Assembly (NCBI GenBank): GCA_020080175.1
Contig: JAGHQL010000050.1
Location: 83,513 to 147,512, forward strand
Direction: 5' to 3'
Length of the DNA: 64,000 bases
From: Glutinoglossum americanum
Lineage: Eukaryota > Ascomycota > Geoglossomycetes > Geoglossales > Geoglossaceae
In this document: positions 59,222 through 64,000 of the stretch, piece by piece
Layout of the letters: each line of letters begins with the position of its first letter
Numbering within the stretch: the first letter of the stretch is position 1
Made by a program: the position numbers and the translations under genes
Notes under the pieces: generated by a model
Told to the model about the DNA's origin: nothing
Seen by the model: the letters and a program-made list of their open reading frames with translations, nothing else
Database searches by the model: none

Positions 59222-60604
59222 TCACCCTACATTCGGAATATTTTTGGCCCATGTTACCTTATAAACGCCGTCCGGCATCGACCTGAGGCTCGTGAGAGCT
59301 AGTGCAATGATAATCAAACGCGAAACCATGTATATAGTGGTGAAAGCAAGAACTAATAACGAGTGAATAATCGATCCACAACAATCGAATAATAGAGTAG
59401 TCAAGCAATCCGCACGGTATATTACAGCCCCAAAGTCGTCGTCGGGGTCGGGATCTTCTTCAATACCGCGGTCTCGCAGGACCTGGAGTTTGGCATTGAG
59501 GGCGTCGATAACGAACAAAACCGAAGGAATGGTACTTGACAAGATGCTACAGACTCTCCAGAGCATCCTCTCTACTGGAGTAGGGAAGTCGAAGTTCCAG
59601 GCTGCGACGTGGATACTGCCGAACACCAGGGTTGCGATGGCCAGCCAGGTCGTGACAGATTGAACACTTGCCTCCTCCAAACGCCGATAGCTATCGTTGG
59701 GTATACGATCCCCCGAGGCTCCATAGGAATGCGTCGGGCGAATAGCGAGGGTATCACTAATAAAAGAGTTCGAAACGCTACTATCCCTGAGAGCAGAGCG
59801 TAGCGCATCGTAACTGTGAGCGGAAGCTCCGATATACATTGGGGTTTCAACATCCTTAGGCTTGAACCACAAGGTTGCATATGTCGGAACAGCACAAGCC
59901 GCAAAGGCCAATGTAAGGATCTCAAGTTGCGAGCATGGGAGATGGTATGCAGACCGAGCAATGACGGATATCACCAACCAGAGGATTTGCATCACGGTGA
60001 GAGCCTTGGTAAAAATATCGACCTTGCTTTTATCCTTGATATCCGCGAGCGGAAATATCTGCATTGCGTACCAGCCCTCATCCTTCCACTGCACGAGCTG
60101 CGAAGCAGTCACGAGGATCGAATAGTCCGCCCCCGAACCACTACGATCTCCCCCCTCCCTACGGACCCGGACACCGCCCATGTTTACAAAAAAAATATGC
60201 GTGAGAGTCCACTCCTCCTCCAGGCGACAATTAGAGCCAGAGGAAGCGCCTTTGGAGACGCCCCATCGCCCCCGGTCATGGAACGCGCGATGGACAGGTA
60301 GTCCTGCTTTTTTGAATGTATCCAGCACTTCCCACGCCGAACCAAGTTGAGAAAGCGCAAGCGCTAGGATAAACTCGGGGAATGCGACAGTTATTGCCAT
60401 CCACTTCACCTTGCGCAGGAGTTTTGCGACACTGCCATCGTTCGGCGCAGGGACATTGAGATGAAGAACGCTCCACGTGCAAAGGACGATAGTGAAGAGA
60501 CAGCTTTCTAGGATGTTTAGTGTCCCACGGTGGCTGGGATTACTAACCCATCCGGTACGGTGACTTTGCGTTGGATGAGAGGGGACAGTAGTGTTTTGCA
60601 CCAT
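59222..60604 (-). CDS. Conserved fungal multi-pass membrane protein, function unknown
   Basis: A single-exon, 460-residue protein of a large Pezizomycotina family. I know the family by pattern but no function. Near the N-terminus it has GWVSNPSHRGTLNILESC followed by LFTIVLCTWSVLHLNVP, the hallmark of this family, then a basic RKVKWM loop. Roughly six to eight hydrophobic segments follow (near residues 30-50, 75-95, 190-210, 215-235, 320-340, 350-370 and 410-440), with a long hydrophilic loop (about 100-185) and a Ser-rich loop (about 245-305). The first ATG, at 60604, lies 18 codons ahead of the GW motif. It is the only intact gene in the relic-rich right end. Confidence 0.75.
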   Translation of the reverse strand: MVQNTTVPSHPTQSHRTGWVSNPSHRGTLNILESCLFTIVLCTWSVLHLNVPAPNDGSVAKLLRKVKWMAITVAFPEFILALALSQLGSAWEVLDTFKKAGLPVHRAFHDRGRWGVSKGASSGSNCRLEEEWTLTHIFFVNMGGVRVRREGGDRSGSGADYSILVTASQLVQWKDEGWYAMQIFPLADIKDKSKVDIFTKALTVMQILWLVISVIARSAYHLPCSQLEILTLAFAACAVPTYATLWFKPKDVETPMYIGASAHSYDALRSALRDSSVSNSFISDTLAIRPTHSYGASGDRIPNDSYRRLEEASVQSVTTWLAIATLVFGSIHVAAWNFDFPTPVERMLWRVCSILSSTIPSVLFVIDALNAKLQVLRDRGIEEDPDPDDDFGAVIYRADCLTTLLFDCCGSIIHSLLVLAFTTIYMVSRLIIIALALTSLRSMPDGVYKVTWAKNIPNVG

Positions 60605-61237
60605 CTTCTGTGAGATTATCTTGAAGTTCTTTTGCGAATTGCCAACCGACAATGAGATTGCGACGAAGTAGCAATAATGATCCGGAAACCAACTTTAGTA
60701 ATAACCGTGGTGCCGCGACATCCAGGCAGCTAAGTCGAAATTCCAGTAGGACCAGTGGCAAGTGTCCAGCTAGCAGAGAGTAACTGCTGCGATTAGTTGG
60801 TTCCAAAGAATTTATAGATCAGACGCCCGAACGAACCAACTCGTTTATAACTACTTAGGGATTGCCTGATTTGGAAGCTGTAGAGGGTATTGACTTTGAA
60901 GTGTGATGCATACCAACCCTTACTTTTTCGTTTTTCTGGTTTAGTGTTGGGCTGGGTCAATGCCCTTGGTACTGTGGATGAGTGGGTTCGCTGGTGGATT
61001 GTTGATTAAAGTGGGAGGTCGTGGAAGGTGAGCTACCCTTGCCAAGGTTCAAGGTTATAAAATCGGCCCCGACCTCACCGTAATCTAGCGGGCGAGCAAC
61101 GCCGCCTTGTACTACGGTACAGGGCAAAAGTTTTGTTAGTATGGACGCCACGACAAGGGTTGCGGGAATTACCTTCCCTCGCTGTTTTCTCTCAGCTTTC
61201 TCCCGGCTTGCTTTTGTTCCTGTTCCCATACTAATCA
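60605..61237. other. Upstream flank of the membrane-protein gene and of the transposon relic
   Basis: Contains the promoter of the minus-strand gene and the unknown left end of the Tc1/mariner relic. I could not find the terminal inverted repeat. Confidence 0.45.
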
Positions 61238-62081
61238 ATGGAAAATATTAGTATTCTTCCTTCTACTCCTAGAAAGAAAACTCATCTTACTTATGATCAA
61301 CGTCATGATATTCAGCTTCTACATTCTCTAAGATGGTCATATTCTAAAATCGTAAAACATGTTGATGTGACAGAACGACAAGTTCAGTACATGTGTCAGG
61401 GGCCTGCAACACCACAAAAATGCAACGGTCGGCCTCCAAAACTCAATACAGAACAGATTTAAGAACTTATTAAATTTATTACTGCATCTTGAATCTGTCA
61501 ATGAATGTCTTATAGTCAATTAGCTTCTACACTTAATTTTGGATGTAGAGAATATGCTATTCAATCTGCTTTAAAAAAAGAAGGATTTAATCGATGTGTT
61601 GCTCATCGGAAACCTCCAATTAGTGAAAAAAAATCAGCTATTAAGGCTAGCTTAAACAAAAAAACATCATTATCAGACTCGAAAATAATGGGACAAGATT
61701 CTTTGGATAGATGAAACTTGAATTACTGATAGTCAATATACAAGAACATAAATAACACAACAACCTGGAGAAAAATGAAATAAAACTTATGTTGTAGAAA
61801 AGAAACTATACTGATAAGGTTAAATGTTTTGAGAATGCTTTTCAGAGAAAACTAAAGGTTTAGAAATCTTTTAGAAAAAAAACTAGAGGATAATCAATAT
61901 GGAATCACATATGGATTATACCGTTCTGATTATTTATAAATAGATAAGAATGTATCCTGAACTTCAGATAATACAAGATAAAGTTTCAGGATATGTAGCT
62001 AAAGTAATAAAATAAGATTTTCAAGAGAGAGGAGTTTATCTTATTCTTTGGCCTCTCCTTTCTCCTGATCTAAATTTTATC

Positions 62082-62086
62082 AAAAC
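62082..62086. repeat. Target-site duplication AAAAC, left
   Basis: Pairs with 63578-63582 around the outer LTR insertion; both sides join to restore the transposase frame. Confidence 0.85.
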
Positions 62087-62430
62087 TGTAAGAACCCTTG
62101 ATATCAAGGCGATATGAAGGCACTCTGACATCGAGGGTTCTCGGGAGTGTGACGGCTGCTTATATAAGCTGGGCCGCGAAGGTTGGGTGCCACGAGCATC
62201 AAGGCCGAGCTAGCCCTAAGAGGTCAGTCACAACAGAGCAAGGGGGGGCTGGCTGTATGGCACGATGGAAGAATAGACCTAATGGTCTTTGATAGTCTAT
62301 CTAATGTGATTATGATATTAACTGATAAGGTTCCCTTCCGGACCCTCCTCGACCTTCTATATATACTAATGGCCTTGAGGGACTCACGGGTAGGGACCTG
62401 CCTGATTCCCTCTATGGACGTGTACAGACC

Positions 62431-63040
62431 CCTTGCCTCCGGCCGTACTTCCATTGGGGAGTCCTTATGATGCTCATGTGGTTCCCTTACTGTCAGGTTC
62501 TAGGGGGATGCCGCGGGTACTCGAGGGTCGAGGGGGTCGTTCGGGAGGTCGTCCGTGGGCTCGCGAATGAGTTCTTGAGCTCGAATGGGTGTCACGGCTC
62601 GGCAGGATATCCGGCGGGATGTCAGAGGCAGGTAGGCTGAGTAGGTGGATGGATATGGACTACTGGGTGGCTTCTATTAGATGAACTATATACAAGAGGT
62701 GTGTTGACCGATAGAGATTGAAGAATCAACTCTGTCGGTCAGAAAAGGAGCTTGAGAGCTTGGCTTAAGCACAGACCCTATACTGATCTAAGCTTACAAG
62801 CCCTGTCTTTATGTGCCGTGACACTTACCACCGGCCATGCCTTCTGCCGCTGCCTGTGCTCCTATGTGGAGTTCCTATGATGCTCATGCAGTTCCTTCGC
62901 CACCGGCCGTGCTCCTATATGGAGTCCTTATGATGCTGTGTGGTTCTTTCGTCACCAGCTGTGCTCTTATGTGGAGTTCTTATAATGTCCATGTGGTTCC
63001 TTCGCCGGCCATGCTCCCATGTGGAGTTCCTATGATGATG
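62431..63040 (+). repeat. Minisatellite of about 50-bp units within element X
   Basis: Units share the order CGGCC, TGCTCC, TATGTGGAGTTCCTATGATG, TCATGTGGTTCCTTCGCCACC with drift. One unit lies before the innermost insertion (62431-62490) and about four after it. The inverted copy at the right window edge carries the same units but seems to have one fewer. Confidence 0.75.
62491..62823. mobile_element. Innermost solo LTR ('Z') inside X
   Basis: 333 bases, beginning TGTCAGGTTC and ending GTGCCGTGACA, flanked by the duplication CTTAC (62486-62490 and 62824-62828). It has cut a minisatellite unit of X; removing it restores the ...GGTTCC-CTTAC-CACCGG... unit. A TGTCACGGC motif at 62590 is an inverted match to its end. 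Confidence 0.75.
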
Positions 63041-63742
63041 TCATTGGTAGAGCCTTGCAGGCCCCCCTCATATGTCACCGGCTTAATGTATTATGTATAG
63101 AGTGGACCCTCCCTATGCTCTGCTAGCCTTCCTTAGGGCTAGCCCTCCTTCTCAGCTTGTTTGGTGGCCCACCAGGCCCTTACCCGGTAGCTACCATAAC
63201 AGGGAGGTTCGGTAATAGTGTGATGTCGCACCTCGCAGCAACAACGATAGCTAGGCGCCTGGCCTACATATGGATAAGACTTAGATATATAAGGGCTAAT
63301 AGGTTGACTCAATGGTTTGAGGATGACTACACATCGGTCCGACTTAGAATGTATGGCAGGCGGGATAAACTTGATTCTAGTAAGTAGGAAATGTAAAAGA
63401 CTGATCGCTAACCTCCAAGCAGGAGGCCAGCGGGTCATATATATACATGACGGTGAACGCATAATGGCTGAGAGATTGCATTGCATATGGATGAGACATC
63501 GTCGATGTCATGTAAGCTGATTACCTGGCCGCAGAGGCTCAGGGGCCTCACCGGGTAACCGACCACGAGTCATGACAAAAACAGTTTGAGATATGATGAA
63601 AAATTACATCTAAAAGCATTTTCTAGAAAAGATAATATATAATTATTTACAGAAAGTGGTGAAAGAAACTTAGGAAGCTATTATAAAAAAAGATTTAGAT
63701 GATCTTGTTGGGAAGATGTATGATCGTTATCAGGCTGTTATT

Positions 63743-64000
63743 TGTTATGGTGGCTACCGGGTAAGGGCCCAGTGGGCCACCAAACAAGCTGAAAAGGAGG
63801 GCTAGCTCTGAGGAAGGCCGGCAGAGCATAGGGAGGGTCCACCCTATATGTAATACACTAAGCTGGTGACATACAAGAGGGGCCCGCAAGGCCCTACCAA
63901 TGACATCATTATAGGAACTCCATATGGGAGTATGGTCGGCGAAGGAACTGTATGGGCATCATAGGGACTCCACATAGGAGCACGGCCGGTGGCGAAGGAA
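63743..64000 (-). mobile_element. Second copy of element X, inverted, running off the window
   Basis: From TGTTATGGTGGCTACC on, the plus strand is the reverse complement of the right half of X (63201 leftwards), including the GGCCCAC...CAAACAAGC block and the minisatellite. It starts inside the transposon relic, so it is a separate insertion of the same family in the opposite direction. Its other end lies beyond 64000. Confidence 0.8.

Follow-up and report, generated by a model that had tools for sequence, protein, structure and literature searches.

A broken Tc1/mariner element at the end of a contig

The window, i.e. the whole stretch of 64,000 nucleotides of Glutinoglossum americanum DNA that was analysed, corresponds to positions 83513–147512 of contig C264, and its right edge is the end of that contig in an assembly of 317 contigs and 25.8 Mb. 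Pfam matches in the window included an EDC4-like pdc1, coproporphyrinogen oxidase and JmjC; neither RNA families nor tRNA genes were found in 60600–64000 or across the window. Toward the contig end, a Tc1/mariner element with a broken transposase lies on the forward strand in two parts. The left part (61112–62086) was 65% identical over 862 bases to one genomic relative (L026) and 67% over 404 bases to another (L027), and the right part (63583–63742) was 67% identical over 129 bases to L027, resuming where the left part stops. A DNA search with this element detected two other mariner copies in the genome, on contigs C307 and C285, which were 66–67% identical to it.

A stop-free piece of the transposase (61505–61711) matched PF01498 HTH_Tnp_Tc3_2 (E 8.8e-5), and the window copy also matched HTH_23 (E 0.0012), both below the curated cut-off; the DDE domain of the transposase was seen in the relative L026 (DDE_3, E 4.6e-9, above the cut-off). 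The left terminal inverted repeat (61112–61143) and the left end of L026 were 87.5% identical across 32 bases, and TA (61110–61111) precedes the repeat. Its right counterpart was found on another contig, C15, where, after removal of an insertion described below, 30 of 34 bases including the TA agreed with the left repeat, and the second TA copy lies at about 1008–1009. Both the pair of inverted repeats and the TA duplication, two hallmarks of Tc1/mariner, depend on the link between C264 and C15.

Nested insertions and their empty sites

The two mariner parts in the window are separated by Y, an LTR-type element at 62087–63577 (+ strand; 432 bases without its insert; TGTAAG...ATGACA), which is flanked by AAAAC at 62082–62086 and 63578–63582. 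Within Y lies X (62148–63201, +; 716 bases without its insert; TGTGAC...ATAACA), flanked by GGGAG at 62143–62147 and 63202–63206, and carrying a minisatellite with a unit of about 52 bases whose tandem array occupies 62856–63037. X in turn holds Z (62491–62823, +; 333 bases; TGTCAG...GTGACA), flanked by CTTAC at 62486–62490 and 62824–62828, whose best genomic copy was 99% identical (contig C160). A sequence-only reading of this stretch had proposed exactly such TG...CA ends and exact 5-bp duplications, and all three pairs were perfect. It had also proposed that taking out each insertion restores its host, and the uninterrupted relatives bore this out: mariner L026 reads straight through the Y site, the Y copy L067 through the X site and the X copy L029 through the Z site, with the target site present once in each of the latter two. 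The third mariner, L027, likewise aligned across the Y site, to the left and then to the right part of the window element. The order of events, mariner, Y, X and then Z, is given by the nesting itself, as that reading had it; the decay of the mariner, which that reading set before Y, is not dated by the nesting.

The three-layer nest of the sequence-only reading therefore stood, and two further insertions, X2 and X3, had been missed. X2 is an inverted X-family copy (63743–64000, − strand) that reaches the contig end and was 87% identical to X positions 459–716; it is preceded by TTATT at 63738–63742. Contig C15 (locus L054) opens on the remainder of an inverted X-family copy, followed by TTATT (C15 222–226), the transposase C-terminus and the right inverted repeat, which is split by X3 (C15:336–998), a fifth, X-family insertion with the duplication GTACC/GTACT. 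The reading frame that ends as YQAVI in the window resumes on C15 as IDAQGKFIRY-stop, and the mariner relative L027 terminates, as read by eye, in IDAQGKFVPY-stop; L027 also aligned in succession to the left part of the window element, its right part and the C15 part. On this sequence logic the two contigs are apparently adjacent, and the gap between them would hold about 236 bases of X2 that are present in neither contig. The mariner would then extend from window position 61112 to approximately C15:1007 and hold Y (with X and Z within it), X2 and X3, so that one element carries five LTR-type insertions, three of them nested, the count of five depending on this link. The nesting assigns X2 and X3 no place in the sequence of Y, X and Z.

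Similar nests were found elsewhere in the genome. At 50–1549 of L062 (C304:91900–94500), Z holds a Y-type element (ACTAT/ACTAT) that holds X (CTTCA/CTCCA), making a second three-deep nest with another order. L034 has X in Z (CTCCA/CTCCA), and L049 and L081 have Z in Y with the duplications GTATG and TAAAA, respectively; weaker nests, with one or two mismatches in the duplication, were seen in L014, L023, L041 and L065. Since Z lies in X in the window and X lies in Z in L034, the periods in which these families were active overlapped.

Two readings would dissolve all or part of this stack. The repeat copies might have been misjoined, so that the nesting would be an assembly artefact; the assembly is indeed fragmented (317 contigs) and broken at these very repeats, but misjoins would not produce a perfect 5-bp duplication at the exact ends of each of three elements, and similar duplicated nests occur on other contigs (L034, L049, L062 and L081), so we give this reading almost no credence. 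The other concerns only insertions four and five, which would not belong to one element if the inverted X-family copy at the window end and the start of C15 came from two different mariner copies. The lack of overlap between C264 and C15, the large size of the X family and the shortness and AT-richness of the TTATT site leave some room for this, and the mariner DNA search might miss a fragment as short as that on C15, making a further degraded copy possible. Against it, the only other mariners detected (C307 and C285) have their own right ends in the fetched loci, the frame runs on across the TTATT site and the C15 inverted repeat matches the window's left one at 30 of 34 bases, and we regard two separate mariners as highly unlikely.

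Genomic copies of the three families

Queries for the genome search were the left part of X, the right part of Y and all of Z; the best 40 of 107 (X), 122 (Y) and 105 (Z) first-look candidates were scored, giving 41, 52 and 42 match rows, respectively, some of which are pieces of one copy. The fetched loci and the window together contained 55 left ends of X, 41 of Y and 49 of Z, for 38, 23 and 22 of which a right-end partner was found. A perfect 5-bp duplication flanked 18 of the 38 X pairs, 13 of the 23 Y pairs and 12 of the 22 Z pairs, compared with means of 0.56, 0.74 and 0.60 when the right flanks were shuffled. Where the duplication had one mismatch, this was a transition in every X pair (8 of 8) and every Y pair (6 of 6) and in 4 of 5 Z pairs; the remaining pairs, with two or more mismatches (12 X, 4 Y and 5 Z), represent decayed or truncated copies or false pairings. 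TG...CA ends were seen in the window copies and in nearly all of the listed genome copies, some with TG changed to TA or CA to TA. The lengths of X copies clustered near 664, 716 and 768 bases, successive sizes differing by one 52-base minisatellite unit. Copies sharing the ends of X, Y and Z were thus present at dispersed sites, but a full-length retrotransposon with matching LTRs, which the sequence-only reading had suggested looking for, was not found among the best 40 candidates per family.

In L051 (C283), 473–2069, one X seemingly lies inside another in the opposite orientation (matches 473–810, 819–1694 and 1695–2069). In L028, at the end of C241, an X copy adjoins sequence that reads, by eye, like another Tc1-type transposase, and the mariner relative L027 begins directly after a Y-type right end. 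It seems that dead mariners often host such insertions. In addition, X lies in L050, L052, L055 and L059 (contigs C15, C197, C285 and C1) within an element whose inverted terminal repeats measure about 100 bases (GGGATAATTACTCGC...); the left end of this element was not seen in L059. Comparison of L050 with L071 as an empty site, and L052 alone, suggest a 9-bp target duplication for this element, as in Mutator-like transposons. The X copies inside it lack the 5-bp duplication, as if X had been captured once and had then spread along with the element.

Mutation patterns were counted by comparing the window elements with aligned stretches of at least 200 bases (69 X, 44 Y and 49 Z), at sites with identical neighbours only. 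Transitions far outnumbered transversions (3598:154 for X, 1641:166 for Y and 1267:114 for Z). The variable fraction was highest at CpG (0.54, 0.50 and 0.31 for X, Y and Z) and lowest at CpT (0.13, 0.16 and 0.08); CpA (0.32, 0.44 and 0.21) ranked second in X and Y and third in Z, below CpC (0.24). The classical RIP indices were not clearly raised in X, Y and Z: TpA/ApT was 0.83–1.0, versus 0.80 in window positions 1–60000, and (CpA+TpG)/(ApC+GpT) was 1.42 (X), 1.26 (Y) and 1.03 (Z), versus 1.21. As judged from these counts, which had no unique-sequence control, the pattern looks RIP-like or methylation-deamination-like. Identity is consequently a poor clock for the copies of these families.

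Probable solo LTRs in a broken transposon

The best reading of X, Y and Z is that they are solo LTRs, which fits the TG...CA ends and 5-bp duplications. Y integrated into the mariner transposase, X into Y and Z into X, whereas X2 and X3 would have entered the mariner itself, where X3 split the right inverted repeat. At each integration an integrase would have cut the target with a 5-bp stagger, visible as the duplication; each retrotransposon would subsequently have been reduced to a solo LTR, most likely by recombination of its two LTRs with loss of the interior, and the copies would afterwards have been changed by RIP-type C-to-T mutation. Terminal direct repeats of note, as in a miniature LTR element (TRIM), were not found, the longest exact matches between the first and last 130 bases being 9 (X), 9 (Y) and 6 (Z) bases; since no long terminal direct repeat lies within X, Y or Z, a TRIM was rejected.

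Retrotransposon coding sequence was located through 22 RVT_1, 5 RVT_2 and 14 rve matches in the genome, most of these loci being compared with the places of X, Y and Z by position only. This comparison linked none of the X, Y and Z copies to a reverse transcriptase, and no same-strand pair of one family bracketing a reverse transcriptase or integrase was seen by eye among the best 40 candidates per family. The two readable 3′ ends of coding elements, on C14 and C103, carry other LTRs. At the copia 3′ end on C103, the LTR-like start matched none of X, Y and Z, its sole match being 76 bases in L003. The LTR on C14 belongs to another family, W, which gives a parallel within this genome: it occurs as LTR-like copies and, on C14, also immediately follows a purine-rich tract that lies downstream of a chromovirus-like pol. 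In the surrounding locus (L087, C14:3800–7300), a stretch of about 1.6 kb, apparently holding a reading frame in antisense, separates W from this pol, whose C-terminus looks chromodomain-like by eye.

A loose scan for purine tracts and for the TGG that starts a primer site covered the flanks of 136 left ends (50 X, 39 Y and 47 Z) and 90 right ends (50 X, 19 Y and 21 Z) from 61 loci. Two left flanks were purine-rich and five right flanks had TGG, and five of these seven copies have a duplication with no or one mismatch. The exceptions lacking a good duplication were an X copy in L051 with a purine-rich left flank and a Z copy in L071 with TGG in its right flank, as a 3′ or 5′ LTR might have; apart from these two, the flanks are host target sequence rather than primer site or polypurine tract. 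The left flank in L051 matches the 3′ region of the C14 chromovirus in antisense, by which match the X copy probably lies in a chromovirus remnant. The flanks shared by the X copies of L050, L052, L055 and L059 were considered as retrotransposon interior and rejected, being the X-carrying inverted-repeat element; those shared by Y and Z copies were read as further copies of Y, X or W lying alongside, and one 48-base flank match was found between the X copies of L041 and L048.

That none of these 136 left and 90 right ends was shown leading into a retrotransposon interior, and that copies up to 99% identical exist, could also mean that X, Y and Z are complete short non-autonomous elements without an interior, mobilised as units by the integrase of an LTR retrotransposon. 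This count covers the best 40 candidates per family, though, and several contigs end within X, so that full-length copies may be missing from the assembly. Moreover, we know of no mechanism that moves an LTR alone, and in fungi and yeasts solo LTRs commonly outnumber full-length elements; we therefore consider mobilisation as units unlikely. A more radical version, in which the families are LTR-only, with an interior never present in this genome, and land preferentially in dead transposons and in each other, would amount to a new kind of non-autonomous retroelement, and we hold it to be very improbable. The missing interior for three LTR-type families may well stem from the assembly and the limited candidate sets. 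We infer, with considerable confidence, that one Tc1/mariner element served as a landing ground for LTR retrotransposons, of which solo LTRs, later mutated in the C-to-T manner of RIP, are the residue.

Solo LTRs of Ty3/gypsy or Ty1/copia elements share with X, Y and Z the TG...CA ends, the 5-bp duplication, the many dispersed copies and the lack of recognised coding capacity, and differ in that no full-length parent was found here among the best 40 candidates per family. Nested clusters have been described in Mycosphaerella graminicola, where the account of 78 such clusters reports LTR insertions with verified 5-bp duplications and DNA transposons also serving as base (PMC4522978). In both cases LTR retrotransposons have entered a base element, a single base can hold several primary insertions, 5-bp duplications verify the layers and mutation is RIP-like; the clusters of that account span 7.5–63 kb, whereas in the window nest a mariner of about 1.2 kb serves as base and all layers seen are short LTR-type units. 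For fungal Tc1/mariner elements, nested insertions are discussed as a guide to relative age in a study of Paracoccidioides (PMC2836289). As in the elements presented there, the window mariner has terminal inverted repeats, a TA target duplication and Tc1-type transposase domains, but it is broken and about 65–67% identical to its two genome relatives. Set beside the clusters described in these sources, the window nest is a further, compact example.

The stack is thus an ordinary kind of genomic wreckage, although the stacking is real and its order readable, and it settles no open question. What it offers is a compact stratigraphy, five insertions in one element if the link to C15 holds, in which the duplications make layers and empty sites checkable. 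The nest also suggests that two contigs of the assembly, C264 and C15, adjoin, and together with the other nests it documents overlapping periods of activity for several LTR families in this genome.
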